Assembly: GCF_030704535.1 (NCBI RefSeq)
Contig: NC_081818.1
Span: forward strand, 1,439,001-1,503,000
DNA from: Vitis vinifera
Lineage: Eukaryota; Streptophyta; Magnoliopsida; Vitales; Vitaceae
DNA: 64,000 nucleotides
Reading direction: 5' to 3'
In this document: positions 37,705 through 63,132 of the stretch, one piece after another
Layout of the letters: each line of letters starts with the position of its first letter
How positions within the stretch are numbered: position 1 is the stretch's first letter
The notes under the pieces: model-generated
What the model was told of the DNA's origin: nothing
What the model saw: only the letters and a program-made list of their open reading frames with translations
Database searches by the model: none
Made by a program: the position numbers and the translations under genes

Positions 37705-37860
37705 GCCACAAAGGAAGAGGATGAGGAACCCATGTTGGAGAAGGGGAGCACGTGCAGAGCAGATTAGAATTTGTGAACTGCACGTGCAGAGCAGATTAGA
37801 ATTTGTGAACTGCACGTGCCCTGCTTCTCCATCAAGAGCTTCACACCCATCACATATATC
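37705..37860 (-). ncRNA. MIR164: microRNA 164 precursor hairpin
   Basis: On the minus strand, 37831-37811 is identical to plant miR164 (starts TGGAGAAGCAGGGCACG, ends TGCA). The opposite arm, 37754-37734, reads CACGTGCTCCCCTTCTCC and on, matching the usual miR164 star strand. The two arms pair almost fully, with the star placed 3' of the mature strand. miR164 guides cleavage of NAC-family mRNAs (CUC1/CUC2/NAM type) and controls organ boundaries. The loop of about 56 nt contains a 32-bp tandem duplication. A TATAAATA box lies upstream on the same strand. The order of downstream protein genes suggests orthology with Arabidopsis MIR164C, which is inference. Confidence 0.93.
37748..37819. repeat. 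32-bp tandem duplication in the MIR164 loop
   Basis: On the plus strand, GCACGTGCAGAGCAGATTAG and the following 12 bases occupy 37748-37779. They are repeated exactly at 37780-37811, and a third GCACGTGC begins at 37812. Thus GCACGTGC occurs three times. The mature strand's 3' half could pair with the middle copy as well as with the genuine star arm. Confidence 0.9.
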
Positions 37861-37966
37861 ATGTAATTCTTCTTCTTCTTCTTCACACCCCCAATGTCAT
37901 GAACTTAGGTGTTTGCTAAGCACTCTTATATGAATGAATGAAGACGAAGAGAAAGCCCATGTGTAG

Positions 37967-37974
37967 TATTTATA
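37967..37974 (-). promoter_or_regulatory. TATA box of the MIR164 transcript
   Basis: The plus strand TATTTATA reads TATAAATA on the minus strand. It lies 136 bases above the mature miRNA 5' end, which would put transcription start near 37935-37945, leaving a leader of about 100 nt before the mature strand. Plant MIR genes usually have TATA-containing Pol II promoters. Confidence 0.55.
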
Positions 37975-37999
37975 CACACAAACACAATATTTAGTGGAG

Positions 38000-38428
38000 A
38001 AGATTGGAGAGTGAGTTAAAGCGATGGAGTCTTGAAGTGGGCATTCTTTTAAAGACCCATTTGTAGAAGCAATCAAGTATATGTTCCCAACTCCCAAGTG
38101 ATTGCTGCTGTTGTGTGCGTGTGGCCATGCAAATTCTTCAAATCCAACCCTGGGTATTTTTGGAAAAACAAAAAAAAAAAAAAGTAAATTTTTTTTTACA
38201 AGATCTGAATTCAAGCGCGTGGATACACGCGCCAACAAAACTCAATGGTTACTTGGAGGTCTTAGTTTGGGGAGTGCCTCCCACGCGCTTCGGGAGGGAG
38301 GTGAGTTTGACATTTGGAAGACGTAATAGCAACCCATGTTGGATTTGACTCTCAATTTGACGTGCCCCAGTAAATCTTATTCTTACCGGTTTCATCAACC
38401 GTTTCCATTTCCAAAATACGAAAATCCC

Positions 38429-38459
<31 letters not shown>

Positions 38460-39264
38460 ATTAATTTTTTTGAAATAGGTCCTTCATCAGTCAATTCAAT
38501 CCATGATTTAGAGAAGCAAACAAATTGTGAGCCGTTAATTTTAAACCTAACATATAAATTTGAATGATAGTAGTGAAAATTAGGTATGATATTGAATGGC
38601 ATGGATGGTTGCATATTGATAAAAGTAGTGATGGAGCAGTGACGAAAACGGAGAAGACCTTTGACCAAAGAGACTGATGGAATGATGGGAGTGAAAGAGA
38701 GGTGTAGGGATTGGATGGTGGAGGTGGTGGATGGGCTGAGCATAGATTGGTAAAATGGATATAATGGTGCAGAAGAAAGACAGCAGAACAGCAGAAGCAT
38801 CAGACGAAAAGAACCCACAACAGACCCAGACCCAGACCCAGACCACCCCAGAACAGCACAGCACAGTGTAAGATTTGCACGTTGGGGTTGCGTGTTGGAC
38901 GCAACCTTTTCATTAACCCCCACCTCATCTCTTATCTCTTTCTCTTTAACTCCCCCCACAGATGAAGGTCTGTGTTTGTGTTTTTTTTGGGTTTGGAGAG
39001 GGAGAGAGGTGGGAGAGTTCCAAGGTGGATCTGATGCCTCTGTTTCCTTCATGCTTCTACTGGGAGAGACTAGAGAGAGAGAGGAGGAGAGAGGAGAGGG
39101 GTTTGCTTTTCATGTTATTTTTCCTTTTGTTTTTTCTAATACCCCCCATGGTTTGTGGTGGGTTTTTTTGATATCTGCTTCTGACCGCTCATGCCTTGTA
39201 AAATGTGAATTAATGCTGCCCACATTCACCCCTACCCCCACTTAGCTTCCCACAATTACTGAAA
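38000..39264. other. Upstream region of MIR164, no protein gene supported
   Basis: A poly(A) run of about 29 occurs at 38429-38457. The minus strand holds a 267-codon open frame (39052-38249), but it includes a poly-Phe stretch that merely reads the homopolymer, and it lacks conserved features. The region probably contains distal MIR164 control sequence, including a GC-rich patch near 38260-38300. I found no evidence of a second gene. Confidence 0.4.
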
Positions 39265-39500
39265 AAAGCAAAAATGCTATAGAAAATATTTTTTTTTTAT
39301 ATTTAATTTCATTACTAAAAAGTAAAAACAATAAAAAAATAAAACATAATTAAAATTAATTAAAAATTTATATATTAGTAAATTATTTAATTTATATATA
39401 ATAAAAGAAAATAAATAAAATCAATTTAAATAAATATATAAAAATAATTTATTAATTTTAATTTTTTTTTCTTGTATTTCCCAGAGAAAAAAACATACCT
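39265..39500. mobile_element. MITE remnant sharing the interior of the 24613 family
   Basis: Contains AAACATAATTAAAATTAATT and AAAATTTATATATT, the same order as in the copy at 24613-24938, and AATTTATTAATTTTAATTTT as in the copy at 16546. The ATGTTTGGTTCC ends are lost, so the borders are approximate. Confidence 0.45.
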
Positions 39501-39803
39501 TTACTATTTCCACGAGATAATTTTTTGTGTTATATTTTGTCATATGGGACATGTTACTCTTTAGTCTTTATACAATGATGTTTGTATTGACTTGTTTTTA
39601 TTGTACAAACAATTATGATTATGATTGATGATAGAAGCTGAACTCAATTATATATAATTGATTTCAAGGATGTAGATGATGGTTGTAATTAATGGCGCGT
39701 AGGGTTCAACCTAATCAGTACTAAATTTTTAATGTTTGTGTAAGGATTAGACATCCTCGAGAGTTATCTTTTCAGACTATGAATTGCACCCAAAGAAGGG
39801 CAT

Positions 39804-40382
39804 ACAAGATACGCAATTATAGGATAATATCCCAACTTGCATTATTTTTCAAAAATTTATAAAAAATAATCAGAGCTCCTTTGAATAAGACTCACATTAC
39901 ATGCTCCAATGAATTTATGTAAAGAATTCATGTTTAACAAAACACACTATTTATAGACCTTCAAATCTTATCCACATGATATAGATCAAATTTGAGGTTA
40001 AATGCTTCAACTATTATCATTCATCTTATCGACTCTTTAAGAGGCTCGAACTATTTGCCACTTTATCTTGTTGCATGCATTCCTTATCTTTTACAAGATA
40101 CACAATTATAGGATAATATCCCAACTTGCATTATTTTTCAAAAATTTATAAAAAATAATCAGAGCTCCTTTGAATAAGACTCGCATTACATGCTCCGATG
40201 AATTTATGTAAAGAATTCATGTTTAACAAAACACGCTATTTATAGACCTTCAAATCTTATCCACATGATATAGATCAAATTTGAGGTTAAATGCTTCAAC
40301 TATTATCATTCATCTTATCGACTCTTTAAGAGGCTCGAAATATTTTCCACTTTATCTTGTTTCATGCATTCCTTATCTTTGA
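39804..40382. repeat. 289-bp tandem duplication
   Basis: 39804-40092 is repeated at 40093-40382 with about seven single-base differences (for example TACGCAATTAT against TACACAATTAT, and GACTCACATT against GACTCGCATT), so roughly 97-98 percent identity. Both copies run from ACAAGATAC to CATTCCTTATCTTT. High identity in otherwise decayed DNA implies a fairly recent event. No gene lies within. Confidence 0.92.
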
Positions 40383-41640
40383 TCTTGTCATTTATTCCCA
40401 AATTCAACGACCAACTTATCACTCGTCATAGAAACTTATCTACACTTGTTTCATGTCATATGCTCATTTGTTTCAAAAATTAGTTTAGTTTGTATCATGT
40501 GTTGTGTCTTGCACATCTTAGCTTGCCAAGCGTCATGCTCTTATTGTGCTAATAGCCCCTCACTTAGGATTCCTTCAATGTTAAGGTACCACACTTCTTT
40601 GTCATGCCTTAGTGTTTGCCAACACTGCTTGGACTCTTCTCAATGCCAAGTGTTGCATGTAGTCAAGCCTACTAATATCATTCAACCCACTATTTTGTGT
40701 CTAGGTAGTTTTGTGTCTAGGTAGTCTATGTGTGCTAAGACCCCTTTTAACCTTCATGCTTGTGCAACATTGCCTTGATGTGTTAAGCCATTTTCTTAGC
40801 TCATGATTCATATTTGATGCTTCCATCCAAGGCATGGATAGCCCATATCATGGGCCATAGTCATGCCTTGTATTATCACATCCATTAGTTGTACCATGCT
40901 CGTGACATTGTGCCCATGCATGCTAGCAAGACGCACCATCACCTTACTTATATTCAAAGCTCTTATGCCATGCTTTTGTTGTGATATAGCTTATACTACC
41001 ATCACCAAATTTGAGTGAATCACTTATATTAAGTCATTCTCATGATACCAAGAGGAGATATCATAGGTACTTCCAAAGGAATAATAATTTTTTTTAAAAA
41101 AATCAAGAAAAATTGAAAAATCATTTTCCCAATTTGCCATCCCTTTTTCAAGATATTCCCATTTGAAGGGAAAATGTCAACTTCCAAAACTCCACACTCA
41201 TGGCGATACTCCACTTGCATTAACATGATCCTTGGCCTCACTTATCACCTTGTCTCACATTATAATAGATCAACCCACATGCCATAACACTCGTGGTGCA
41301 AGGTGTCATCACATGAGACCTTGAAATGGTATCATGTCAACTATTTCAAGGTGTTGACCATTGACGACTCACTAAAAAAATTTAACTTATTAGGAGAAAA
41401 TAATATTGAAGTTTATATGTCTTTTTCCTCTTGTAATTGATATTGATCTTGAAAAAAAATGGTAAGACTTATTTGATTGGTTTCGAAAAAGTCGAAAGTT
41501 GAATTTTAAACTCATGTAAAAAAAAAAAATCTATATCTATTTAACTAATTTTATTCGTGGTTTTTGTTATAATTCTTTTAATTTGTACACAAAATTCTTT
41601 CATATTTAGTGAAACTTTTATCTTATCAATTCTCCGTTTG
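40383..41640. repeat. Probable retroelement-derived spacer (LTR-like), no intact ORF
   Basis: Balanced base composition compared with neighbours, no intact conserved coding frame, and a short internal duplication (TTTTGTGTCTAGGTAG twice near 40695-40725). This is the look of an old LTR or other noncoding retroelement part. I could not identify paired LTRs, a primer-binding site or polyprotein motifs, so this is tentative. Confidence 0.3.
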
Positions 41641-41773
41641 AGATTTTTGGTTATAGCGTAAGGGTTTTCCATTCACAGGGTAAAACAACATACCAAATCA
41701 TTTGGGGAAAAACCCTTCATTTCAAAAAAAAAAAAATAAAAAAATTCCACAAAAATGGTTGTCTATGAGTGCC

Positions 41774-41935
41774 AAGCCCACAACATATATCTTCCATTTT
41801 CATTCCACAACTCAAAAGGTTGGGCCCGAAGGCATGAAGCCCGAAATCCTAAAGCCCACAATCATCTGGCGAAGTATAAAAACGGCGTCGTTTCAGAAGA
41901 AGAATCACAGAGAGAAGCGAAGAATGAAACCCTAG
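41774..41935 (+). promoter_or_regulatory. Promoter of the L18 ribosomal protein gene: site II elements, TATA and telo-box
   Basis: AAGCCCA words (about 41774-41780 and 41852-41858) and TGGGCCC (41821-41827) are site II-type elements (TGGGCY). TATAAAA lies at 41875-41881, and AAACCCTAG at 41927-41935 is a telo-box. This combination is well known in promoters of plant ribosomal-protein genes and of nuclear genes for mitochondrial proteins, and it fits the gene that follows. Confidence 0.7.
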
Positions 41936-43874
41936 CCATCTTTGCGAGTTGGTAACCGTTGGAGATTCGTAGCGTCGACCTTAAGACCTTACCTGAGAAA
42001 AGTCTCTTTGGAAGGTGAGAAAGCTTCTTGCTTGATTTATTTTCCGTGATTCTCTTTCTAGGAAATAAACAAACTTAGATAATTTTAAACATTTTCTATG
42101 TTTCCGAGAAAATGTGCGAAAATCGAATGAATTAAAATTCTGAACACGGATGCCGCCTAAACGATAAGATTGGAGATTTTCTTTGTTCTTCTTTTCCACT
42201 TTTCTCGGCAACCAAACGGAGGGTTTTAATAGCTTTTTGCTTGTGTTGTTTATGATTGTGGTGAATGTGTTGTGTGATTAGAAATTTTGCGATGCGACAA
42301 ATGTTTGATGAAACGCTAAATGGTTTGGATTTTGCTGTAAACAGATAGACACAATGGCAATTCGTATAACCAGTTTGTGTTACTGGTTTGTGGGTATATT
42401 ATGATTTCCATTCGTTTAGAAGGTTATTGAAAAATCAAATTCAGGGTTGGAAGTTTTAATTTTCTTGGCGGTCAAATGGAATGTATTAGGCTTGTCAACC
42501 TGTTGCATGATTCGATTTTTGCTTTCTGATGGGTAAGAAGCAAACATAAAAAGAAAATCCAAAGGACGAAAACTTTGTCATTTGGTTGTTATAGACTTGG
42601 ATTGATTTCATAGACGATCTTATTTCTCCATCTTTTCCAATCTGGTTCTATAAGCGGCTCTTTATGCAGTTTGGTTTTGGTTTTTTTTTTTTTTTTTTTC
42701 CAAGTTACATTGGTGGTGCGGCATTTAATAATTAATTGTCTACTTTCAGTATTATATATTTGTTCATGTTGTGTGCTTGTGCGTGTATTTTTACATTGAC
42801 TTCAAACCCCTTTCTCTACTGATTAATCAGTCCAAACTTGAGTGAAAATCTTGGATTCCAAACATCACAATGGACTCAAGCTTATTGTCTGACCTTCCTA
42901 TTGTACATCATTTTGGGGTTGATGGGCTTTTATTACTTTAAGGGACTTTATCTACTTAAGAATTAAATTCTATATCAGACATCTAGTGCTAAATTGACAT
43001 GGAATTTGGCTTCTAGATAATAGTTCTTGTTGATTTCATCATATCAACATGATTTTGGGGCTTTGCTAGGGTGTTAGACAAGGGGATCATTGGTTCTGTA
43101 GCATTGAGGTAAAATTTAGATGTCACTTTGTTATCTCAAGGCAGTTTTAGATGTTAAGTTTGGTTTCATCCTAACTGTTTGGGACTGGGGAAGGCTACCA
43201 TTCCTCCCATGTCTCATGGTTTCCTGGTGGAAATTTTATGCAATGGTTGTCAGTTCTCTTGCTCATTATCCAGTTTCAACAGTAGCTTTATCCTCCTTTA
43301 TTGTGTGTGTTTTCCTTTAATTTTGAGTTTTATCTGTGTATGAACTTCCTTGTCTGTGACCCACTTGTATATTCTGTCTGCGAAAGGAGATTTCGGCCCT
43401 TGAATCTTGGACTGGCCCAAAGGGCTGAGACCTGGACTTTTGCCTGGCTCTAACTTAGTGTCTTAATCTGGGTGTCAATTTTTTATTCTTACTTTGTTTT
43501 TATTGTTTTGGGGGGATGGTGGTAGCGGTTGGTGGGGTGGAAGGAACAGCTGTGAGAGATTGGGTGGGGTAACCTGTATGTGTCATGACCCAGAAAAGAG
43601 CCTGGCCTGGGGTAGCCATTGAACTACTGGTTCTGATTACATCCTGTTTGTGTGTATGCATGTGTCTATAATCATGACCTGTTCCCCATTCTCTTGTTCC
43701 TATTGAAGTTCCTCCTTTGATGAATTTGATGATCTTTATCCAACTTCTCTGGCTCTAACCTTATATAAAGATGAAGATAAACTATTTTTTCCCAAAAGTG
43801 CAATCAACTTACATAATTTTTTCCTCTTAGCTTTGTTCTTCCCATTATATTGATATCATACTTGCAAAGCGGAG

Positions 43875-44219
43875 ATGGTTATTCCTCCACCCATCAAGCC
43901 ACCAAGAATTATGAAGTTTCTCAAGCCATATGTCTTGAAGATGCACTTCACGAACAAGTTTGTAAATGCCCAAGTGATCCACTCACCAACTGCCACAGTT
44001 GCCTCAGCCGCAAGCTCACAGGAGAAGACCCTGAGGTCGACCATGGAAAGTACTCGGGATGTGGCAGCAGCTGCAATGATTGGGAAGATACTGGGGGAGC
44101 GCCTACTGCTGCAAGACATCCCTGCTGTTACCGTTTTCTTGAAGAGAGATCAGAAATACCATGGTAAAGTGAAGGCCGTAATCGATTCCTTAAGAGAGGT
44201 AGGTATCAAACTACTTTGA
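43875..44219 (+). CDS. L18-type (uL18) ribosomal protein family, probably mitochondrial
   Basis: A 114-aa protein with the whole frame in one exon, starting MVIPPPIKPPRIMKFLKPYV and ending REVGIKLL. The family binds 5S rRNA in the large subunit. The length and sequence match the plant Ribosomal L18p/L5e family protein represented, from memory, by Arabidopsis AT5G27820. A 5'UTR exon (ending 42014 at GAAG|GTGAGA) is joined across an intron (42015-43869) to the exon that starts five bases before the ATG. Site II and telo-box promoter elements upstream agree with a translation role. The C-terminal block AAAAMIGKILGERLLLQDIP and KYHGKVKAVIDS is the conserved L18 core. Organelle location is inferred from the family; there is no obvious long presequence. 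Confidence 0.9.
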   Translation: MVIPPPIKPPRIMKFLKPYVLKMHFTNKFVNAQVIHSPTATVASAASSQEKTLRSTMESTRDVAAAAMIGKILGERLLLQDIPAVTVFLKRDQKYHGKVKAVIDSLREVGIKLL

Positions 44220-45900
44220 ATTCAGGAAAACTTCTCTTTGGATTCTCTTATGAAAACTTCATTTTCTGGCATTTCTGAACTTTCTGAAGAGGGGAATATA
44301 TGGTGGGTCCCATTTTTTATTTTCTTCTATTTAGCCATGTATAAAACTAGAACTATAAACCCAGGTATTGCATGCATAGGGCCATTCCTCTGTATTTACC
44401 CATACCCCTTGAATGTCCTGGTGGACCTGCTGAAAACAGACTCAAAGGTCTTAGTGGATTCATAAATGCGCTGAGCTTATTTCTTGATCCTGACTTGTAG
44501 GGTTAAATTTTACAAATCTTATCTTGATTCCCTTGTGGGCCCTCAAAATTTGACCCAATAATTCTTTCTTGAATAGAAGGATTAGCTTAGTAGGACCTAA
44601 ACTCAAGTTTGATACAAGGAGAAGTCTTATTTGTATTCCCCCTTCAACCTTTATCCACTCAAACCCTAATTGAAAGGCCCTCAATTGCTTTCCTTTCTAA
44701 ACCCTAATAGGCTCCTCTTGTATTTTAATTTGAAGTGGTAAAGTTTGGAAGGAAAGAAAGTGAGGGAGAGGAAAGTGGGAAACAATTAGGGTTTGGGTTT
44801 TAGGTTAAAGTGACCGAAGGTTGAAGGTATAGGGAATGTACATTTAGGTGTTGTTTGTTTTTTTTTGCTTTTTGTTGAAAGCAATTGTTTTCAGAATTTA
44901 GGTTGTTTGTTTTTCTATTTTTTCATGACTTATTATAAACTTTTTACTAAATTAAAAAAGCTAAAATATGTAGCTTTTTCTAAATATAAAAAATAATATA
45001 TTAGTTTTTTTTTTTTATATATTTTAATACTTAGTAGAAATAAAATACTACAAAAACAAACAATCTAATATTTAATACTATTAAACATTAAGGTTCTATT
45101 TAGAATTAAGTAAAAAAGCAAACACCATTAGTCTAAGGGATGAACTCCCCTTCATGTGGTGTTACATATTATTCAACAATTTTGCTAATTCCTTCTTTGA
45201 AAACTAAAAAAATTTGTCTTCGAAAGCTATTCTTAAAAACTATTTTTTTGATAGCCTTTCGTACTCTCAAATGGATTTTGAAAATTTGTTCTTTTAGAAT
45301 TGTTTTCAAATATTTCTTAAAAGATTTCTCTCAATTTCAACTCTTAAAAAGGGAAAATTGTAAATGATTTTTCCTTCTATTTCCTTTATATAATTCTTAT
45401 CTATAGTTTCTTTTCCTCAAACTTATTAGAGAAGCAAAAAAATAGGAATTAACATTTATAATGTAACGTGAGAGATAGAAGATTGACCTAATTGATGTAA
45501 ATGTTGTCCCCTAGGGCACGACATGGATAACAATGAGCCCATTCCACAATGTGGGGCATTAGATTATAAAATTTATAAGTATATAATTCTTTAATTATTA
45601 GGTTTTGGGTTAGGCCAAATAATTGCACTCCTAAGCCTTTTGCTTTATTGTGAAGGGGACAAAAGGCAGACCAATATGACAAACGGGGGGTTATCTTGTT
45701 TGAAAGACCTTAAGAGTTAGTAGTTTCACGTCAACAAACACTAGCACAACTCACTCTCGGCTGCGCGTGCTTCCACGCGCAAATAACATTCCATTTTTAT
45801 ACTCATGTTGTATTAACATTTTAACTCCTACAAATGTTTTCAATTCAAATATTTTTAGAAGTTGCAATTGATATATATATATTTTTTTTTATAGAATTTA
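44220..45900. other. Intergenic, no gene recognised
   Basis: Contains the L18 3'UTR and then moderately A/T-rich DNA. Short frames on both strands (for example minus 44684-44460 and 45682-45488) show no conserved motif. A GTTTGTTTTTTTTTGC-type A/T-rich patch near 44855-45125 may be another decayed MITE. Confidence 0.4.
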
Positions 45901-45903
45901 AGG

Positions 45904-46200
45904 ATATGTTTGAATACTATTTTTTAGAATAGTTTTTGTTTTTTATTCTTAAAACCAGAAAATAAAGTGTTTTTAGAAGATTAAGTGTTGTTTTAAAAAA
46001 TAATTATATAAATACATAAAATGATTAAAAATAAAATATTAGATATAAAAATAATTTTTAAATATATTTAAAAATATTAAAAATAAATGAAAAATATTTT
46101 AGATTTTTAATTAAAATTTTATTTTATAAAAATTTAAATAATAATTTTTAAAACCTATTCTTAAAAATTAATTTTTAGGAACAAACTCTTTTGAATAAGA
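45904..46200. mobile_element. Possible decayed MITE
   Basis: A segment bounded by ATATGTTTGAATACTATTTT and the reverse complement of AAACTCTTTTGAATAAGACT, with an interior of AAAAATAATTTTTAAA words. It resembles the element at 15468. The ends match poorly, so this is a weak call. Confidence 0.3.
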
Positions 46201-46589
46201 CTTAAACATTTTTATGTATTATTTAAAAGGTTTTTTATATATTATTTAAAAAGTTTATTTTTATTTTCGCCATGGATGTGTGGGTTGGACGGTGTTCGAC
46301 ACGCGTTTCTCAAGTGAGTAGATGTGGTCATCTCCAATTCCCACTCTCTTGGCTTACTTGGGTTGCAATAGGCCATTAATTTCTCATGATATGTATTTTT
46401 TAATCTCACCAAAATATCGAGGAGATGTGGAATTTGGTTAGCGCACTTGCCAATTATATCTTTTAATAAAAAAATATTTTTATATAAAAAATGGCTACAA
46501 AAGAATATTCATATGAAATTTATACGAGTGTGTTTAGTAATGTTTTTTACTTGAAGTCTTTATAGTAGAAATGTTTTCTTGGGAAGAAT

Positions 46590-47110
46590 CGGAGAGTGAT
46601 TATAGAAAATGTTTTTAATATTTTTAATTCTTGAATTTTAAATATTTTTAACTCTTGAAAAAAATTATTTTTAAGTGTTAGAAGGGTTAAAAATATTTCA
46701 TACAATCATTATTAAACAAGTTTTTAGAGTCCGTTTCACAGTGATTTTATAAAACATTTTTAACTTTTTTAATACTTGAAAAAATATATTATTGAAGATA
46801 TTAGAAACGTTTTTAAAATCAGTATTAAATATATTTTTAGAGTGCGCTTAATAGTGATTATAAGAAATATTTTTAACATTTTTAATATTTATAAAATAAA
46901 AATTTCCAAGTGTTTCAAATGTTGAAAACATTTTTTAGAATTACTATTAAATGCACTCTTAAAGTCCATTAAAGTCCATTTGATAGTGATTTTATAAAGC
47001 ATATTTAATATTTTTAGCATTTAAATTTTTTTATTTTTTAAGCTATAAAAGAGTTATAAATGTTTTCTAAAATCATTATTAAATATGTTTTTAATGTTTC
47101 TTTAAAAAAA
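46590..47110. repeat. Four diverged tandem repeats of about 113-145 bp
   Basis: Units are marked by AGTGATTATA or AGTGATTTTATA at 46595, 46740, 46853 and 46985. Each is followed by a TTTTTAATATTTTTAA-like run and ends with AATCATTATTAAA-TTTTTAGAGT-like words. Homology is clear by eye but old. Non-coding. Confidence 0.6.
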
Positions 47111-48049
47111 AATTATAAAGTGATTTTTCAATTCTTAAATTAATTTTTTATATTTTAAAAAATGTTTTTTTAATTTTTTTAAATATCTAACTTTTTTTAG
47201 AAATAATTTTTTTAAATTAAAAACACTTTTTAAAACACGAACTCTAAATTTGATAGGGGATGATATGTTATATTAAGTTAGTGTGCTATGAAAAGTATCT
47301 TATTATTTAAAATTTAAACGAAATGTACAAGTTGTCCCCCTCATAAGAATCATGCTCACTTCATCACATAAAGTTATTATTGAAACTTTAATTTTATAAA
47401 TTCATGAATAAAAAATAATACAAAAGCTTATCATACCACTATTAGATTAATATTTAAACTAAGTATCTAAATCTTTGCTTTAAATATAATTATATAATTT
47501 TCAAATCGATCACGGTCTCAGTCTCGGTTTCATATCCTAAAAATGTTTTTTTATAGTCAAGTGCCTTGAAATCATAATCATTTAATTTAAATTAATAAAT
47601 ATATTTAATTTAATTTATTTAAGTAGTTAAGCCATTATAGGTTCATCAATTTTAAATTATTATTTCTTTCATTATATTGTTGAATATTTTAATCACCCTT
47701 TTTTTTCTTATTGGGTTCATATTATTTATATTCAATGGGGACAAAAAATAATGTGAATCTTATCGTCTCGTGAAATCCAACTCAAAATTATAATTTAAAA
47801 TTTATGAAATGGAATTTTAATTTTAAATGAAATTGTAATAAATTTAATAAATATTTAAAATGAAAATTAATTTAAAATACGAGTTAATTTCATTTATCTC
47901 CTTCACGATAAAATGCCGATTAATTGAATATATCAGACGGCGGCTCTGAATTTTGGGTGGGGCCCATTAGTTGGCACTCTCGTAATTTCTTTAATATTCA
48001 GGCCTATTTTTGCCTCATTCAATATGGGGTAATTTGGGCTTTCGAAACT

Positions 48050-48240: not shown

Positions 48241-48338
48241 CCCCCACTCCTTGCTCACTATCTTCTCCTCCATTGTGGCTGTGGTTTCTAGAGTAAGCCG
48301 GATTCGCTATATTACGCCGGATTCAGCAAACTTACGCC

Positions 48339-49795
48339 ATGGGCCTCCTAGACCAGTTGTGGGACGATACCGTCGCCGGGCCCCAGCCGGATCACGGCCT
48401 CGGCAAGCTTCGGAAGTACTCCACCTTTAACTCCCGACCGACCTCCGGCAAGGGTACGTTGGGCTCGCTAACGTTGCCGGTCGCGGAGATTTTTTAGATT
48501 GATGAAGTTTTATACGATCCAGGATTAAATAACCGGAAAAATTAAGATTACAAAAGTAAAATCAATTCTAAAACCGAAGGACTGAGGATTTTTTGTTTTC
48601 GCTTTTTTTTTTTTTTTTTTGGTGATTATTCACTGTCTGGTTGGTGATTGGTTTCAGCGGCATCAGACGGTGGAAATGGAAGATCGTACAGCGATGATTC
48701 GTCGGAGGAGGCGATGAGAGTTACACGTAGTATTATGATAATAAAACCTCCGGGATTCCAAAACGGATCGCCGCCGGTGTCCCCGGCCGGATCTACACCC
48801 CCGGTATCTCCTTTTTCCGGTAAGCTCGCAGAATTTCCTTTAAAATGCCAAAAATGCCCTCGCTTATTTGTTTCATATGCGAAAGCCCCACTCCATGAAA
48901 AGTGGAGGTGGGGAAATCTAGAAAGACCCTACACAAAAGTAAAACGGGCAGTATGGTAATTTTAGTTGACATGTTTCCCAGTCAAATGGATGTAATGATA
49001 ATGGGTGAGAGAGTAGGAGTTAGGTCATGGAAATTTATGGTATTGGGGTTTGTTTTGGTTGGTTAGAAAATGACGTTTTTGTCCTCATCCACGTACAATA
49101 ATGCAATGGGCCATGTTTGCTATTTATAATGCTTTATTTTTTTGTTAAACTATTCGTGCCCTTCTTAAGACGTACACATAAGTTTAGTAAATACATGAAA
49201 GTTTTGGCCTTTTTGGGTTGGATTTCATCTTATTTTATTATATAATTGTTAGAAAATTGATGAATTAAATTATATGCTGGTAAACAATTCCATATATAAG
49301 AAAAGGTGGCATGAAATAAACCTTACACCCTTGTCTTATAGGATGCAAGATGGATCTTGTAGTCTAGATTTAGTGTGATGAAGCTTGAATTATGGGTGTA
49401 TTTGGAGGTTAGATCTAAAAATAAACCCCATGATTCATTGATATGTAGATGTTGATTTCATGAATTCTAGTACAAGTATTGGAATGAAGCCTTATATCCC
49501 ATGTTGAATATCCATCCAAATATAGCTTCATGGTATTGTTACATAATTCTATGTGTTAGAATGAATTGTTTTGATGGTGAAACATGGTTATGGGTGTATG
49601 TATTTCATTGAAAACATAGAATCTAATGTTGTTATTATTATTATTATTATCATGGTTCTTACATTGATTCCATGGCTGGTTTACATACAAGGTGGGAAGG
49701 AGTCTTTCCGGTTTCGCCGGCGATCTACATCGGATGCTTACGAGAAGGGGAATGGGGTTGGACCAAGGAGCCCTCGTCCTCCTTACGACGTGTGA
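48339..49795 (+). CDS. Dormancy/auxin-associated family protein (DRM1/ARP type)
   Basis: Three exons, 48339-48453, 48658-48819 and 49692-49795, total 381 nt and give 126 aa, all GT-AG with consistent phase. It begins MGLLDQLWDDTVAGPQPDHG. The middle exon gives VTRSIMIIKPPGF and SPAGSTPPVSPFSG, and the end is RFRRRSTSDAYEKG followed by RSPRPPYDV. These are the conserved blocks of the auxin_repressed family, a group of small, largely disordered, proline- and serine-rich plant proteins induced in dormant buds and repressed by auxin or sugar. Their molecular role is not established. The sequence is closer to the AT1G56220-type members than to DRM1 itself, from memory. Confidence 0.93.
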
Positions 49796-49920
49796 GATCT
49801 GATCCTGGAGATCTGGTTATCTGGTTGCACCAGCACCCTAGCTTCTGGCTTCTTTTTCCATGTATCAATCCCACCTCCCATGATCATGTACGTGAGGAGG
49901 AGCTACATAAAGATATGAAT

Positions 49921-52220: not shown

Positions 52221-52790
52221 TATATGTAAATATCAACTCTCGATTATATAAATATTGTTTGTTTTGATCCCAATGAGTTCTTAATACTCTAAAATTCGTC
52301 TATAAGACTAAGATAAATTCGTATATATGTAGTTCTAAAAATTTTCTTCCTTGTTTAATGTGAGATATCATAATCACCTTTATACAAATATGGTGTTCTT
52401 GTTGTGTTTCATAAGATTATGGGGTCAAGGGTCTAATAAACAAAGACTCACATCAAGGCTACATATTAACTTTGATACCATTTGTAATGATTTACTTTCA
52501 ATCATATAGATATTATTTATTTTGAACTCAATGAACCTCGTAATTTTAAGATGCATTTACAAAGTTAAGATGATTTTATATATATATAACTCAAGGATTT
52601 TATCGTGATATCCTACAGGAGAAATTTTTTTATGCTATATTAGTATGAACTCCTTTTAACTATATAAACACGTTTTAAAGTTACGATGACCTCTTAGGCC
52701 CAGAGTAAACAATGTTTGCACGATTAGGAACAGGTTGTGATAAATGATATCATAATTGATCCTTGACCCTGGTGTAGAGTTTGGTTAGGT
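52220..52790 (+). repeat. Degenerate LTR-like remnant
   Basis: An imperfect direct repeat of about 110 bp (52235-52340 and 52500-52610, sharing ATATTGTTTGTTTTGA-like and ATTTACAAAGTTAAGAT-like words) is followed near 52733 by GGTTGTGATAAATGATATCA. The last resembles a decayed tRNA-Met primer-binding site (TGGTATCAGAGC) just inside a 5' LTR. No coding sequence is attached. Confidence 0.4.
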
Positions 52791-53646
52791 TCATAAAAGA
52801 GAATGTTTACACGATTGAGACTGAGTTGATATTTGTGAATAAAGAATATTTTATTAAAGTAGATAAAGATAAAATAATTTTTAATTTTGACTTTGTGAAC
52901 ATAAAAACATTAATTATATCAGTACCTTTCATATTAATGTTGAATGTTAAGAATTTTTGTATTTAATAAATATTGATCAATTTTTATTAGCAAAATTAGT
53001 AAGGTTCTCTCTTCAAACATTATTATTTCTCTTTTATATTATAAAAAAAAAGATAATTAAAAATAATTTTATCCAAACAATATTCTTAAGTTTCTAAAAA
53101 GTAATTTTTTTTAAAGAAATAAAAATATTCTTTTAATAACAATATATACGAAAACTATCTCTATTTTCAATTGGATAAATTTGTTCATAGACCAAAAAAG
53201 AAAAAAAGTAAGAAAGAAAAATTAAATCAATGAAAAATGAGATATTTGTATTCATTGTTTCATCATTAGAAGTAATATTTCAAGTACTAAGAAATTTACA
53301 TTTTAGGTGATGCCATCATTTATTTTCTTGATTTTAAATATTTATTATATTTAATATGTAACAAAATATTTGAAATGTATTTTAATATAAATAATTATTT
53401 CTTTTATCAATGTAGAATAAGAGCACTTCAAAAAGAATTTTCAAATTTTCACTTGGGTTTTATAAACCCTGGCCCAATCCAAATTTCAGTGGATTCCATT
53501 TCCAACCCGACCCGAGCCCACTCATGCAATGGGTTTCCCGGTAATCGGGTCATACAGGTCTTTGTGTTCTGTTTGGATTATGAGAAAGAAAAACCCCCGA
53601 GCGAGTCAAGTGACTTTGTACGTAGAATCCGTTCTTGAAGAAGAGA

Positions 53647-56600
53647 ATGGATTGGAAAGCTGTGTTGTTTCTGCTATTATTGTTTAATCTCCAAATCCTT
53701 TTTTCCTCTGGTAAGCTTCTTTCTCTTCTCATCCATCTCTACGTTCAACCCTTTTACTTTCTATTATGGCAAAGCTCTGTATTTTTTTTTGTTGGGTGGG
53801 TTAGGGTTTCATGTACTACAATAGCAAATCTCAGAACGTTTGTGCTTTGTTCTATGATTATTTATTTATTTATTTTTGGGTAAGTTTTAGGTTCTTGTTT
53901 TGGATGTGGGTGAGTGTTGAAATCGTCTATTATTGAGAATCAGGCCATAATTTTTGAGAGTTTTGTCATATGTAAATGTTTTCTGTTGTGTTTTCTTCTA
54001 TGGCGTGTTTCCCTGCTGGGACTTGAGTTGTGGGGTAGACTTTGATTCTATACTTGTGTTTTGGATTTGGGTAAGTCTTGAAAGCGTCTATTTTTAAGAA
54101 TCAGGCCATAAACATGGATGATTCTAGCATACGGGTGTATGCTTTATCTTGTGTTTCCTTCTAGGTGTGTTTCTATATCATGGTAAAACTAGCTTCTTTT
54201 TTTTTTTTTTGTGTTTTTGGTCAGGACTTCATATACTACAATAGCGAATCCCAAGAAGGTTTCTGCTTTTTCTGTACTTACTTTTTGGATTTGGGTAAGT
54301 TTTAGATACATATATTGGATGTGGGCGAGTCTTGAAATAAGCTATTGTAGAGAATGTAGCTGCAGTTTTGAAGAGTTTTATCATATGCGCATGCTTCTTT
54401 GTTGAGTTTTTCTCAATGGTATGTTTCCCTGATGGGGGCTTGGGTTCTGGGGTAGACTTTGATTCTATAGTTATATTTTGGACTTGTGAATGTCTAGAAA
54501 TTATATTTTGGGTTTGGGTGAGTCTTGAAATCATCCATTGTTGAGAATCAGGCCATGAACATTGAAGTTTTATCATACATGTATGTTTTATCTCGGGTTT
54601 TCTTCTAGGTATGTTTCACTGAGGGGACTCAGGATGTGGGGTGGAGTCTGAATCTATACTTAATTTTTGAATTTTGTTAAGTCTTAGAATCACCTAATGT
54701 TGAGAACCAGAAGATAATTTTAAGAGTTTTATGATATATGCATGTTCTCTTTGATTGTATGTTTCATTGATGTGGGTAGAATCTGATTCTAAATTGTTAA
54801 AGGATTGGATTTGGGGACTTTTGGCACATTAATTAGGTTATAATACAGTTAGTATTGGTGCATGATTGCCGTTAGTGTTGCGGAACCATTGAAAGAGAGC
54901 AGGCAGTTTGATTGGAAGAGATAGTGGAATCTCTATCCTCTCGATATGTCCAGGAGAGGTGGGCTTGCCTTATTTGAACCCTAGGATAGCATTGCATTGT
55001 ATGGCATGCCAAATGGGGCAAGGCTTGATAAATGTACTTGAGGAAATTTTACAGGTAGCGGATGATGAATTTGTTCTTTGTAAGGGGGCTCTTTATTCAG
55101 TTACTATATGTTGATTATGCCTAGGATGAAAGTGACAGGATGTAAGGTAGTTGTTGGAACTGAAGTGACCAAGGATAACATGCAGAGTCCAAAAGCAACA
55201 GTCTTTCAATATTGGGATGCTCTTGGTATCATGGATTGTGACATGTGCTAGACTAGGGGTGTTGAAGAGTTGAATAGGTTTTCTAACGTTTATTCGTATA
55301 TGAACTCTAAAAATTAGAGTGAAAATAGCCTAAGATTGAATGGTTAAGTTCTAAGTTAAGGCATGGAATTTTTTGTTTTTTTTTTATTATATCCCATTGC
55401 CTTGTTTTAACCTTTTAGCTCCCTTGTATGCTTTTGTGTGCTCTTTTGTTAGGTGTTGTTAATATAATTGATCTTTGCCTATAAAAAAGAAAAAAGAAAA
55501 AGAAGAAAAAGAAGATTGAATTCCTATTTGAATTTGTGACTATATCGCAATTAAATCAATTAATATGAAAAGAAAATAACACGAGGAAAATAAAAAGAAT
55601 TAGGACATGGTACTTTTTGAGGTGGAAAGACCCTAAGAGATAAAACCATTGGACCTCGTCTGGAAAGCAATCCACCATATTAAAAAGGCTTACAAAGATA
55701 TTCTAATATTATCATCACTACATCCAATCCTAATCCATAGATCTGCAACTTGAATCTTCCTAAATATTCTTTTCCATGTCACCAACTGTCCATGATTCCT
55801 TGAATGCTGCTAGCAAGATTGCTTCAACGATCTGGAAATCACCAGATCATGCTCTACTGCTATCAGCATTTGATCATAGGTGACAAAGGTTTTTGGGGAT
55901 CCATTTTCTTTCTAAAAAATTTCTCTATAGTGTTTTCATAAAAATTAATGATTTCTGGGAGAAATTCTGTCTCAAGGCTTTTTTAGATTTGAAGAGTTCT
56001 AGCAGAGAGAGATATGTTTTCCATCTCTTGAAAACCTTCAAAATAAGTCTTGAAAAAGTTTTGGAAATGTTGGAAGTCCAGAAAAAGCAGATTTATATTA
56101 AAAAAATGTGTTTTGCTCTCTCATCAATCCAAGGTGGGTTGTGATTAATCTAAGAACAATTATCCTATTCAATGGATCCATGCACACCTTGATCCAATTG
56201 AAGAGCAAATAATGAATTGATTGAGATTGACCTTGCATATATCAAAAGAGAGTTTAACTCTTAGCGAGCCCCTCTGCAGAAATCAAAGTCTTCAGCTTTT
56301 AACAACTGCCTTAGAATCTTGGATATCACAAAAGCCTTTTTAATTTTCTCAAGATTTTGAATGTTATCTGTTTACAGGTAGTTTTTCCATTGGATTGGAT
56401 GTCCCTTGATGTTGCTGTACATCAGTGTTATGTACATCTGTTAAGCATTCATAGAATTATGTTTTCTAAGGGTATAGCAAGAGGTGTTTGTGGCAATTGT
56501 AGATAGTATGAACATTGCTTTCAACGCAGGCTTGAAGGAGACTAACAACAATCAGAACCAATTAGAGACTACCCCTATTCTGCTTGTTTGGGTGTTAGCA

Positions 56601-59600
56601 AGCTTCCAAATGATATGTTGTGGAAAAGACAATACACACTGGTGGTAAGCATTGCCTTGTTCCATTGTATCTATGTAAGTCGCTCCACTCACACCAGTCT
56701 CCTTGTGTTGGGACTCCCATGGGTTTGTAGACATCTCTTCCTATGTTTGCTAGAACAGAAGGTTTTCCTATTTTTGAATGTGGATGTTTTGCTCTGCTTC
56801 TAAAGCCTTCTTGAGACATTGTAGATTGTAACTAACTATGGAATCTTGATGCTGTGTGGCAAAAATTGGAATTTGAAACTTACTTTTCAATATTGTCTTT
56901 ATAAGTTAATTCATATTTATTCTTGAGGTTTGAAGGTTTTAGCTCCCTAAACACTTCTGGTAAGTGACCTAAAATGATATTCAACTGAGCTTGTGATAAA
57001 CTGTACTAACTGTTTCTACAAAAGGGAAAAAAAACAAAAGAGGAAAAGAGCTCTATGACCTGTTATCACTCTGAAATAATGATACCTTGATTAATTGTAA
57101 TTACTTTGTAAATAGCTTCTAGCTTTTAAGATGCTTTGAATTTATCTCAATGTAGGCAAACCTGATGGAGTATGTATCTCTCCGGGTGGACGCTTTCCTC
57201 CATTCTCCTCTGAAGGGAAACCGCCTAAGAAGGTCAGCAAAGGACCCAAAGATTTGACCCTTTGCAGGGTGTTCCGCAGAAAGACATGCTGTGATGTATC
57301 CCAGACACATCCTGCTTTGCTGTCTATCAGGAGGCTGGCTTCAACAGGGGAAGCCAGCCAAGAATGCTTGCAATTATGGGAATTATTGGAATGTTCCATC
57401 TGTGATCCACATGTTGGTGTTCAGCCTGGACCTCCGGTTATATGTACTTCTCTTTGTGATAAAGTCTTTCAGGCTTGCTCTAATGCATACTTCTCTATGG
57501 ATGCAAAAAGGCAGGTTAGTGGATAATCTCAGGACTACTAGATAACAGAATCCATCCGAAAATTGTGAAGATCTCTGCATATGAGATGATGCTTCCTTGG
57601 AGATTCTACTCCCTAGACTGATATGATTAGGTTATGGTACACAAATCTTTATGGTTAGACTGAAACTTAATAATGTATGGCTCCATAAATGATTAAATGG
57701 GTGCTTCTAAACTTCAATAAGGTCTGAAAGCTCCCGAGTTGGACTGCATAAAATTGTCCTCACCATCCCCCTTTAAATGTTTTCCAGGTTCCCTATTATC
57801 ATTACTTTTGGACCAGTAGTATCGTTTTAAAAAAACAGATAATAATGTTCTTTTATATAATGCTTGGCAAAATTCATTTCTGATTAGATGTTCTATGCCA
57901 GGTTCTAGCACCTTGTGGAGTAGGCGACTTTGTTTGTGGCAGGGCTTCTGAATGGATTTCTAATGGCACAGACCTCTGCCACGCTGTGGGTTTTTCTGTC
58001 AAACCTTCTGATGCTGGCATGGAAGAAACATCTTGTTATGGTGGGAAAGCCAGTCTAGATTCCATTGCTGATTCTTGGAAGGCTTCTCAATCTGAGACAC
58101 CATCGAAAATTGAGAACGTAGGTGTTTTAGATGATTTTCAGCAGTGGGTGAGGGAAATGGCATTTAGCGAAAGAGTTTCTTGGGCAGTGGGAGGAATGGT
58201 TCTTACAGCAGGACTCTTGTTTTTAAGGTCAGATCACTCTCTTTATTGGCATTTATAGTCTCATTTTTTTTTTTTTTCCAATTAATGTTCTAGTTTAGAT
58301 GCTGATGTTTTCAGACTTGCTGGTTTCTTCCTCAAGCTTAACTTGCTTCTAGTTTGTTCATGTTAAACTCTGGTCCATGTTTCAATCTCCTAATTTCCTA
58401 TTGCTAGGCAATTCTTGATGTGTCCTCTTCTTTTTTTGTTTCCTCTTCTTATCTTAAGGTCATGAATATTTAGTGGTTAATGCTTGGATGGGACATGAAT
58501 TTTCATCTGGATAGTATCCATGTAGACTATGTATCTGCATCTATGAGGGTGCATGGGTTTGGCCGTTGAGGCAAGGCAACAAGTGGATGCCTAAAGTGCT
58601 TTGAGGGCCCAATTTCATGGACTCATGCCTTGAAGTGAAACTATAATGATGGAAACACATTGAATGTACCTCACATAGTGATAGGCACACCTGTAATAAT
58701 TCTGCATGTTCTCCCTGCCTCATCCTGTGGGGGGGGACAAAACCTTTTCTGGCACCTGCCATTTTATGCAAGAGACAAGCCACACCAACCATCCTTTGCA
58801 GTATTATTTGTTGGTTGGAAATATGGATTTTTTTTTAAGATGTAATTTCAAATCTGGTGGCTAATGGGCCGAATTTGGACTTGGATAGGGCTTAAATTAA
58901 ATTTCTGAAAAATTGAAGTAAAGAAATTATCAGCTGTAATTTTGGAAATTTAGTTGAAATGCATACAATCTAGTGGGAAGAATTTCTAGAAGTTTGTGAT
59001 ATGTATATTACTGATTGGTTGAACTATTCAGATGAATATTTAGTAACTTTTAGTGAAATTTGAACCAAAATATCTGAAATTAAAAAATTCTGGGTCAGAT
59101 ACCAAGGATTGTTACCAACCTGTCTGGTAGAAATGGCATTCTTGTTTGGCACAAGAACATGTGAGATTCAGCTGAGTTGATTGATTGTGTGGAAATCCTA
59201 CCATGTGTCAAATTTAAGAACCAGAAAGTGGGTTTCCCACTCTCGTCCCAAATTGGTGATAAATTTGGCAATTTGGACAAGTTCATGTTTTGGTCAGAAC
59301 AGATCTATTCATCATTGTTTGGTTAAACCCAATGTTAGATTGAACTTCTCTTATTCCTAAAGAATTTTGTTAGTTTGACTTGTTTGCCAAGTGTGCCCAC
59401 TGTCAAGGGCTTGATGTTTAATGTAATTCATCCATGGCCATGTGATGGAGGACTTAATGTCATGCAATTTATCTGTGCTCAACTCAGTTATGACTACTTG
59501 GAACAGTCCTTATCATACACAGATCAGCTTTCACTGTAATCAGGGTAGGATTTCTAATACCTATTTTGTTCTTATGTTATTTTCCTTGATAATATTTATA

Positions 59601-60102
59601 TCCCGCCTTTTTTTTCTTGGCAATGAGAATGTACACTGAAGGACCAAATGGGGGTGAACTCTTAGGATGTAGTAAGTATGCAGAGGATTGCCTTATCATG
59701 AATGGCCAAAAAAAAATAAAAAAAAATCACTATTACAAATCTGTCAAACCAATTGCCACCTTGTCTACAAATAGAAACTTTTGCTTCTCCAAGCGTATCT
59801 GCTGAATACATGAAACAAAATGTAAGTATAATACCTTTGAGATTTGTTGCAAAGAAGTCAGTCCTTTCATGATTGTGTTTTGACAAATTGTCATTAGGTC
59901 TTACCTTCAGTCCTTTATTATTGTTTTTATTTGTCAGCTATTTCTCATTTTGTATATATTTTCTGTGCCATGCAGCAAAAGAAAGAGCCATAACCAGCGC
60001 CAGAAGCTAGCAGCCATTCAGCGCACTGCCAAGAAACTGGAAGCTAAGATAAATCAGAAGCATCCAGTTAGTCAAGGAAATAGGAGAGGAGGTGGAAGAT
60101 GA
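53647..60102 (+). CDS. Folate-receptor-like, cysteine-rich membrane protein
   Basis: Four exons, 53647-53710, 57156-57514, 57902-58227 and 59976-60102, total 876 nt (291 aa) with consistent phases. The start MDWKAVLFLLLLFNLQILFS is a signal peptide. Exon 2 holds a cysteine-rich module (LCRVF, KTCCDVSQTH, ECLQLWELLECSICDP, ICTSLCDKVFQACSNAYF) that continues in exon 3 (APCGVGDFVCGRASEW), the folate-receptor-like fold. Near residue 230 WAVGGMVLTAGLLFL is a single membrane span followed by a basic tail (SKRKSHNQRQK). It is expected to be type I, with the Cys-rich domain outside or in the lumen. It corresponds to the plant folate receptor family (AT5G27830 type); ligand binding has not been shown for these to my knowledge. 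An upstream TTG in frame at 53635 is not needed; the ATG at 53647 starts the signal peptide. Confidence 0.9.
53935..54720 (+). repeat. Five diverged tandem repeats in intron 1 of the folate-receptor-like gene
   Basis: Units are marked by GAGAATCAGGCCAT or variants at 53935, 54096, 54350, 54543 and 54702 (spacing 161, 254, 193 and 159 bp). They share GGATTTGGGTAAGTCTTGAAA, GTGTTTCCCTG and GGGGTAGACTTTGATTCTATA words. Each carries a GGTAAGT-like string resembling a splice donor. Non-coding. Confidence 0.75.
55375..55513 (+). mobile_element. Possible LINE 3' tail
   Basis: TTAGCTCCCTTGTATGCTTTTGTG, shortened here, is followed by GTTAATATAATTGATCTTTG and CCTATAAAAAAG with an A-rich tail. This resembles the 3' end of plant LINEs, where a TTAATAT...TGCCTATCAAAA pattern precedes poly(A). 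No coding part was found upstream, so it would be a 5'-truncated copy. Confidence 0.35.
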
Positions 60103-61577
60103 ACGTCTTCTTGTAGGTGCACATAATTTTGTGGTGTTAACTTATAGGTTACTCAGTGAATTTATTATGAACAAAAAAAATGATGTATTTGCTTAAGGAT
60201 TGTTTCTTCAATTTTGGAGCCCTCAATTATAATTTTGAAGCATTCCCACTATAGTGCGGATGATCCCCTGTAGTCCTAACCAGGTAAAAGTCTATGGTTA
60301 AGCAGGTAAAGAGGTTGGAAACCCCTTTACATTCCTTCCTCAGATGGCTTTGATTTCTACTCTCTTGTAACAGTTCTTCAGCCCTTCTCATCCGAATCTC
60401 GTATCTATTTTTGGGAAGCATTTTTTGGTGGTTATATAGCAATTCTACTTGTGTTTCTGTTAAGATCACATTAATGTGGTGAATGTAGTGTTAAAGACTG
60501 TTTGTTAATGTACTTGTGTGCTTTTCTTTTGATGAACCCTTAATTATTATTCACACATGCTTTCTAGTAGACACCCAAAGGAGCTCCTCGAAATGAAATC
60601 ATCAGTGTGATACGGATGGTTTTATGCTTTCTTATAGAAGAATTTTTATGTAGAATAGGCTGTCCATCACATTTCCATGGCCCCATATGCAGAATGCAGC
60701 CTCAAAGTTTTAGAACTTTGGGGTGGCTTGGGATTGTTTTTGAAAACAGTTTATATTTTAGAACAAGAAATGGCTTTCTAACCTGAAAATTTATATTTGG
60801 CAAAGGTTTAAGATGTTTTCAGAAGTTTGTGAAGTGTTTTAAGAAATCATGAAATATATATAAAAAAATGTTTTATAAATTTTTACATTGTATGCAAATT
60901 GGGTGGTGTCTTTATGGAGACCATGTTTTTTGTGGATGAATTCTTAACAAAAATTTTGTTTCTAAAAACATTTGAGAACCATTTTTAAAAATGCTTCCAA
61001 ATAGGCCACCTTGCTTTTCTCATTCATTGCTTTCTTCCATGCAGAGAGAGAATCCATAATGTTATTTCCAGAATGATTCTGTAGGGTTCATTAGCCTGAG
61101 AGTGAATAAAAATGGAACCTGATATTGAGAGTTAAGTAAGAAATACCAACTAATTGACTACAATATACTGGGTATTTGATCAATAAGAATAACCGAGAAC
61201 AAACAACAGAGAGCACCTGATGTACAATACACTCACTCAGTCAAAGGTCTTACGGCAGGTCCATATCCTCAATCAGTACTGGCAAATTGAATGCTAATTA
61301 GCAGATACAGTACGTAATCAAAGATTGTCTAAAGCAAAAATCTCCATTCCTGCACAGAAGACATTGTGTTTTGTTCATTTACAGATTCTACAACAACTCC
61401 CATCTGCAACTAAATCATTGGCAAGCTTCAATATCATGAAGGATTTAGGTCATGATCGGAACTGGAAAGCTTCTCAATTCTGAAACCCATCCATTACCAG
61501 ATGATTCAAACTCTAGCACAAGTTGATCATTCCCTTTTCAACTGAAGACATCTTCAAATACCCTTCTTTTTCATGTA
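60103..61577. other. Convergent 3' flanks between the folate-receptor-like and PP1 genes
   Basis: Holds the 3'UTR of the plus-strand gene and that of the minus-strand phosphatase. No other gene is recognised. The region 60700-61010 includes GGGTGGCTTGGGATTGTTTTTGAA and TTTTTAAAAATGCTTCCAAATAGGCC, parts of which may be ends of another small inverted-repeat element (sequence abbreviated). Confidence 0.4.
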
Positions 61578-63132
61578 TCAGATCTTTCCAGGTTTTATGG
61601 GCTGTTCAAAAACAAAGACAAGAAAAGAGGACCTGGTCAACAAAAGAAAAGGAACTTTCATGGCACCAACATTGGATGCCATGAACCCTAATCTAGTCAA
61701 ATATTTAAAGACGCAATATGATATAAGTTTGTATTGTATTGTGTATACCTTCTTAAGATTCAACTTAGGTACAGTAGAACCGCTCAATGATGCTTTATTA
61801 TCAACTGGTTTCATTATCTCAAAGGAGCATACTAGATCTTTATCAACACTCAAAAGAGCACCGGCATTATCAAACTCTCCACCATAGTTTGGTGCTGAAA
61901 AAATTGTGACTAATCGTCGTTTAGCAAAGAATTCATATCCATCCTCCACCACCTGCAATTCAGCTTAGAACGATTTTAGTCTGGACCACTTGTTTTTAGT
62001 ATGATGTTATCAGACACCAGTCCCTAGATATGACTCAAGCTGGCTGGTATGATACGCATATGAGGGTGTGGTACCCATTCTTTAGATGCAATAGATTACT
62101 GTTACAAGTAGCATAGAGTAGTTATAGGGCTCTTGTCAGTAGGGATACAGCTGAAGCTGGTTGGTACCTACTAGGCAGTGGGAAGATATGGCAGTCAATA
62201 AAGTTGATTGATGCTTGCTACATTTTCCCGTCTTATAATATCTTAAGTGTGCAAAAAATGGAATGTATTACCATTATAGAAGGCTTCAAATTGGAAAAAT
62301 TGTCGAATGATAGGTACTATAATGGTAAGTGGTTACAAACATTGGTAATAGCTTTTCTTTCTTTAGAATATTTATAGATGATGTAAAGGTCCAGGGATGC
62401 TTCCAATAATTAATCTCTCAGTGCCCATTTCTAATACCATGGTTGGATTTATTTCACATAGATGACTTTATTTGGCTTTAATGAATTGGGATGCTCTTAA
62501 AACAACTATATAGAACAAAGTAGGAAAAGTACATGAATGTTATCAAGCATTGTGAATGAGAACTTTGCTTACCTGATGACCTCGGCAAATGAGATCAAGA
62601 TCATTCTTGTCCAAAAATTCAGCAACCTTATCAGCTCCAAAGGTACAAGAAACACCTCGATCACTATCTGCCCAACCATCAACTCTAGCATCAGGATCAG
62701 ACCAAAGCAGATCACAAAGGAGACCGCTATCTGGAACATCAGTAGGTCTCTGAATTTCCTTAATTTGATTCAAATTTTGCAACTCGGGAGAGAGGCCCCC
62801 ATGCATACAAAGTATCTTTTCATCAATGAGTGCAGCCACAGGCAAACAGTTGAAGCAGTCGGTGAATATCTTCCAAAGCCTAACATTAAACCTCCTTTTA
62901 CATTCATCATAAAAGCCATAAATCCGATTGATCTTTGCATCTTCATGGTTTCCCCTCAAGAGGTAAAAGTTGTCAGGATATCTTATTTTGTAAGCCAGAA
63001 GCAAACATATTGTTTCCAGACTTTGCTTTCCACGATCTACATAATCTCCAAGAAAGAGGTAGTTTGCAGCAGGAGGGAATCCACCGTATTCAAATAGCCT
63101 CAATAAGTCTTGGTACTGTCCATGTATATCAC
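61578..63132 (-). CDS. TOPP8: Serine/threonine protein phosphatase PP1 catalytic subunit, 3' part
   Basis: Exons 63132-62573, 61952-61749 and 61601-61578 (stop 61578-61580) have consistent phases and encode about 262 residues; the N-terminal 55-60 residues must come from an exon beyond base 64000. Metal-site motifs are all present: [38 protein letters not shown], and later [22 protein letters not shown]1 dephosphorylates many nuclear and cytosolic targets, with specificity set by regulatory subunits. The tiny last exon codes only seven residues (PIKPGKI). The symbol rests on sequence type plus gene order next to the folate-receptor-like and L18 genes as in Arabidopsis; PP1 identity itself is certain. 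Confidence 0.93.

Follow-up and report, generated by a model that had tools for sequence, protein, structure and literature searches.

A 64-kb stretch of Vitis vinifera chromosome 14 (64,000 nucleotides, C14:1439001-1503000; hereafter the window) was analysed, in which a MIR164 precursor hairpin, a gene for the mitochondrial ribosomal protein uL18m, a folate-receptor-like gene and a gene for a protein phosphatase 1 (PP1) catalytic subunit were found to lie in this order, with a DRM/ARP (dormancy/auxin associated) gene between the second and the third. An earlier note on this DNA had described the same arrangement, including the DRM gene and an L18 protein of 114 amino acids, and had proposed that it corresponds to a block of Arabidopsis chromosome 5, with the microRNA being the orthologue of MIR164C. 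The arrangement was seen as described, and the orthology was supported by the uL18m match, the gene order and a separate MIR164A-type block on chromosome 7. Positions without a prefix are those of the window, whilst labels such as C5, C7 and C14 denote contigs (C14 is chromosome 14 and C7 is chromosome 7); genome-wide searches spanned 495.6 Mb in 21 contigs.

The precursor occupies positions 37719-37848 on the minus strand, its arms (37719-37757 and 37810-37848) being recognised by an exact 21-nt match, a fold and an inverted repeat. On the minus strand, positions 37811-37831 are identical to the 21-nt sequence TGGAGAAGCAGGGCACGTGCA, which represents mature miR164, and the star arm gave a three-mismatch match to miR164 on the plus strand (37736-37756); the mean number of miR164 matches in shuffled sequence was 0.00. 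The folding energy of -57.3 kcal/mol (z = -7.0) was equalled by none of 200 shuffles, and the mature UGGAGAAGCAGGGCACGUGCA sits in the 5' arm of this stable hairpin, as in the miR164 family. A strict Rfam scan of the window, applied at the gathering score, returned no match because the MIR164 model RF00647, which matched both strands of the hairpin (59.5 and 42.8 bits), scored beneath its gathering score of 64, for which a lengthened loop may be a reason. The higher RF00647 score (37736-37833) was obtained on the strand opposite to mature miR164, and the consensus of the model resembles the reverse complement of the precursor. The loop itself contains a perfect tandem duplication (37748-37811) comprising two 100% identical copies of a 32-nt unit that includes the inner end of the mature and star arms; each copy holds the palindromic GCACGTGC. 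Comparison of the hairpins revealed no such duplication in that of C7, hence the duplication is probably recent, a variant of haplotype or assembly being one possibility.

The uL18m gene (43875-44219, plus strand; Pfam PF00861) has an intronless coding frame of 114 amino acids, for which the best PDB match was chain 6xyw_Ao, named At5g27820 (86 of 113 residues identical, E 1e-54). This At5g27820 orthologue adjoins the window MIR164 and is single-copy genome-wide, the three other matches showing 28-35% identity. The folate-receptor-like gene (53647-58258, plus strand; PF03024) has approximate exon borders, with a Folate_rec exon at 57140-57526 on the plus strand (PF03024, 9.1e-15) and outer exons that were assigned by reading, namely a first exon at 53647, whose product resembles a signal peptide, and a last one, reaching approximately 58258, that encodes a hydrophobic tail and contained no Pfam family. 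The PP1 gene (61578-63151, minus strand) was identified from its core (62543-63151; PF00149), for which PP1 catalytic subunits dominated the top of the PDB matches (best 60 of 90), with a C-terminal exon at approximately 61578-61964 assigned by reading (no Pfam family) and an N-terminal exon (C14:1503741-1504097; PF16891, STPPase_N) situated 0.7-1.1 kb outside the window. This type of PP1 was found at one genomic place, and none of the six other full-size PP1 loci, which were 81% identical, lies near another MIR164 locus.

A total of 271 kb of C14 was examined around the locus. Rightwards, the window PP1, a candidate for the TOPP8/9 type, is followed in order by a gene for cytosolic eL18 (C14:1615832-1617955, plus strand, 139 kb from MIR164), beyond which the minus strand encodes an epoxide hydrolase that matched plant enzymes of this kind in the PDB (E 8e-34); a scan of two fragments of the latter returned no Pfam families. 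Leftwards, a class II (mitochondrial-type) fumarase gene (26907-35739, plus strand), absent from the earlier note, is convergent with MIR164 and has its 3' end 2.0 kb from the hairpin. Hand-joining of 15 exons from 29101 produced one open frame of 406 amino acids to the stop, whilst an upstream exon near 26.9 kb is known by motif only. All 15 acceptors were AG, and the 14 internal donors comprised 13 GT and one GC, the exon borders having been chosen by hand and the start of the sixth exon being uncertain. The product matched fumarate hydratase (E 6e-189), with Pfam Lyase_1 on two exons.

A genome search with the 20-nt core of miR164, in which no more than one mismatch was allowed, retrieved six places. 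Four of them (C7, C8, C9 and C14) form miR164 hairpins, a number in keeping with the table of four grapevine MIR164 genes in PMC2831844, which lists UGGAGAAGCAGGGCACGUGCA as the mature sequence of grape MIR164A, C and D. The remaining two, one without a miR164-type hairpin (C17) and one with a different short fold only (C19), look, by reading, like NAC target sites on the opposite strand. Since the mature sequence was identical on C7, C8 and C14 (that of C9 ends in CAUGCU), it cannot by itself assign a paralogue and was rejected as a paralogue marker. The C7 and C14 hairpins aligned best, with equal mature and star arms and few differences beyond them, whilst those of C8 and C9 diverged. The flanks of the C8 and C9 loci were covered by 3-kb pieces and, at C9, by 4 kb.

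The C7 MIR164 (position 3668522, minus strand) was compared by its neighbours, using 70 kb of C7 in two pieces (3638501-3698500 and 3722501-3732500). The markers on C7 are a Na/Ca-exchanger (MHX-like; 3638.7-3639.4 kb), a DNA-photolyase-domain protein (3642.4-3643.6 kb), MIR164, an RRM protein whose first PDB match was U1A (3693.1 kb), eL18 (3723-3726 kb), an epoxide hydrolase (3726.8-3729.1 kb) and a fumarase known from three exon matches only (3870-3871 kb). The photolyase-domain protein fell under the cut-off of the NCBIfam DASH model (162 versus 317 bits) and, given its gene position, is presumably PHR2 rather than CRY-DASH. The three fumarase exons are without stops and 72-95% identical to the window query; the other fumarase matches in the genome (C5, C6 and two on C1) carry stops. 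Between C7 and C14, eL18 gave three exon matches of 91-98% and a fourth, of 71%, extending into an intron; the epoxide hydrolases were 52-58% identical. The pairs common to both chromosomes are thus MIR164, eL18, epoxide hydrolase and fumarase, of which eL18 and epoxide hydrolase have the same order and orientation on each.

Beyond these pairs the two neighbourhoods proved distinct. None of five window queries (uL18m, both folate-receptor exons, PP1 and DRM) was matched in the 70 kb of C7, and in the reciprocal search two of ten C7 queries had clear matches in the 271 kb of C14, namely eL18 (95%) and epoxide hydrolase (58%), with one further match of 13 residues to LOR (E 0.96). The MHX, photolyase and U1A exons, present on C7, were without a counterpart in those 271 kb. 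When frames from C7 had previously been compared with C14, 23 rows were obtained, which were taken as transposon frames, low-complexity sequence and the MIR164 hairpin itself. The earlier note had held that its proposal would fall if flanking synteny grouped the microRNA with MIR164A or MIR164B; for MIR164A, the paralogue to which this test applied, the reverse was found, as the A-type neighbours lie on C7 and the private genes do not cross in the sequence covered, and the window microRNA is therefore the MIR164C orthologue by position.

At5g27830 we take to be the Arabidopsis folate receptor, a code that was not found in the literature searched. The other loci named in the earlier note agree with print: MIR164C is At5g27807 (PMC5608315), uL18m is At5g27820 (PMC6953067, in accordance with the PDB chain label) and TOPP8 is At5g27840, with TOPP9 being At3g05580 (PMC4091783). 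Published locus numbers also place eL18 at At5g27850 and At3g05590 (PMC3585428; PMC9824793) and an alpha/beta-hydrolase at At3g05600 (PMC3538058). Around MIR164A (At2g47585; PMC5608315) are listed MHX (At2g47600; PMC3095359), PHR2 (At2g47590; PMC6928806), U1A (At2g47580; PMC545797), an eL18 (At2g47570; PMC9824793) and FUM1 (At2g47510; PMC6387960). The C7 order of MHX-like, photolyase, MIR164, U1A, eL18, epoxide hydrolase and fumarase is that of At2g47600 to At2g47510. No paper naming at least two of the six At2g47 codes together was found, nor, among the titles and abstract openings listed, was any treatment of MIR164 synteny between grape and Arabidopsis, which does not show that none has been published.

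The case is an unexceptional example of conserved synteny in which the paralogue can be assigned cleanly. We consider it very probable that conserved microsynteny accounts for the locus, with the window MIR164 as the positional orthologue of MIR164C, the C7 gene of MIR164A type and a history through the core-eudicot (gamma) triplication as the simplest one. The conserved block would run MIR164 - uL18m - (DRM) - folate-receptor-like - PP1 - eL18 - epoxide hydrolase, and one ancestral region with MIR164, eL18, epoxide hydrolase and fumarase would have been copied in the triplication, two retained copies giving rise to MIR164A and MIR164C ahead of the separation of the grape and Arabidopsis lineages. 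Grape chromosomes 5, 7 and 14 presumably form such a triplet; the date of the C7/C14 duplication would be that of gamma. The window gene itself would be an ordinary source of miR164, transcribed from the minus strand and diced from the hairpin, with the product directing cleavage of CUC/NAC mRNAs and its own promoter setting the place of action.

The fumarase gene 2 kb from the hairpin invites another reading, in that FUM1 (At2g47510) lies near MIR164A (At2g47585) and an eL18 lies near both Arabidopsis MIR164 loci, so that the window MIR164 could be co-orthologous to MIR164A and MIR164C, these having split within the Arabidopsis lineage in its beta or alpha duplication. We regard this as improbable, as a MIR164, an eL18 and a fumarase are arranged on C7, too, following the At2g47 order, and the C7 exons for U1A, photolyase and MHX are unmatched in the 271 kb of C14 examined. 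Direct orthology to MIR164A (or B) would be compatible with the mature sequence, which C14, C7 and C8 have in common and which cannot discriminate, yet it is very unlikely: the A-type neighbours are on C7, and on C14 none was found beyond the eL18, epoxide hydrolase and fumarase that both chromosomes carry. Fumarase was itself rejected as evidence of MIR164A orthology, given the second fumarase beyond eL18 on C7. That common gene families gathered by chance near a miR164 site is hardly credible; whilst eL18, fumarase and epoxide hydrolase each occur at more than one genomic place, uL18m is single-copy, the window PP1 type is unique, and four markers with printed loci (MIR164C, uL18m, TOPP8 and eL18), along with the presumed folate receptor, are in order.

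Several points weigh against the conserved-block interpretation of C14 and C7. Fumarase lies beside MIR164 on C14 and beyond eL18 on C7, and at least one rearrangement is therefore needed. The C7 markers are interspersed with UTP14-, PARP- and LOR-like genes, which fall outside the At2g47 order as far as it could be checked. A third multi-exon eL18 occurs on C5, which has no MIR164 match, and further eL18 matches, several with stops, were found on C14 (12.06 and 14.18 Mb), C17, C11, C3 and C12. The C14 stretch has a 10-kb gap (1603001-1613000), the C7 coverage leaves out 24 kb from U1A to eL18 (3698501-3722500) and the sequence from 3732501 up to the fumarase, and the genome copy numbers cover most of the markers. 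The Arabidopsis side consists of published locus numbers, one PDB chain and an assumed label for At5g27830. Moreover, a table row of PMC9824793 labels At5g27840 as RPL18e, in conflict with TOPP8, which we preferred.

The DRM gene (48339-49792, plus strand) has three exons, which matched PF05564 when spliced by hand, whilst a scan of a single exon gave no Pfam family. A genome search retrieved three loci, on C10, in the window and at C9:505219-505470 (56% identical), the last being DRM-family by PF05564 and 42 kb from the C9 MIR164 (C9:547811). Between the alternatives left by the earlier note, an insertion in grape or a loss from Arabidopsis, this relative leans the evidence towards a DRM gene that is old in the block and was lost from Arabidopsis, a leaning noticed after the fact that rests on one pair (C14 and C9). 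A linkage of MIR164 and DRM older than the core-eudicot triplication, the two being approximately 10 kb apart on C14 and 42 kb apart on C9, is a tentative extension that we hold to be somewhat less probable than its opposite; if true, DRM was lost from the block around MIR164C in Arabidopsis, and the C9 microRNA with its divergent end (CAUGCU) stems from a duplication of that block at an earlier time.

Other genes were observed around both MIR164 loci. A TOPLESS-like gene (2338-12215, minus strand; PF21889) and a 3' exon of an XTH (PF06955) lie left of the window hairpin. Arabidopsis TPR3 is listed as At5g27030, on the same chromosome as MIR164C, and since the window gene might be TPR3, conserved synteny may extend further, to the TOPLESS-like gene. 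Between PP1 and eL18 lies a DUF538 array (C14:1512290-1585565), its frames mixed with transposon frames (13 by eye, both of the two scanned being confirmed). The C7 pieces also hold UTP14, PARP/WGR and LOR (LURP-one-related) genes, the UTP14-like and PARP-like genes flanking MIR164 (C7:3661000-3679000); their counterparts we assume to be At4g02400 and At4g02390, which would mark a related region without MIR164.

By the titles of two papers cited in PMC10967242, Arabidopsis MIR164A is connected with leaf-margin serration (Nikovics 2006) and miR164c with petal number (Baker 2005). If the A and C loci parted at the core-eudicot triplication, this division of labour may far predate the Brassicaceae, and its age could be tested by comparing the grape C14 and C7 genes. 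Neighbouring genes, in place of the almost invariant mature sequence, also provide a basis for naming eudicot MIR164 genes.

Among known systems, the closest is Arabidopsis At5g27807-At5g27850, which has the same order, by locus number, of MIR164, uL18m, folate receptor (presumed), PP1 and eL18. The grape locus differs in that DRM separates uL18m from the folate-receptor gene, that a fumarase lies within 2 kb of the hairpin, and that a DUF538- and transposon-rich stretch of approximately 110 kb, 10 kb of it unread, extends from PP1 to eL18. Arabidopsis At3g05580-At3g05600 (TOPP9, RPL18B and the alpha/beta-hydrolase) shares with C14 the order PP1 - eL18 - epoxide hydrolase; we know of no MIR164 there, whereas grape C14 keeps the microRNA. 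Lastly, the Arabidopsis MIR164A region (At2g47510-At2g47600) and grape C7 resemble the window in having MIR164 (with the same arms on C7), eL18, epoxide hydrolase and fumarase, and carry U1A, photolyase and MHX in place of the uL18m, folate-receptor and PP1 genes of the window.

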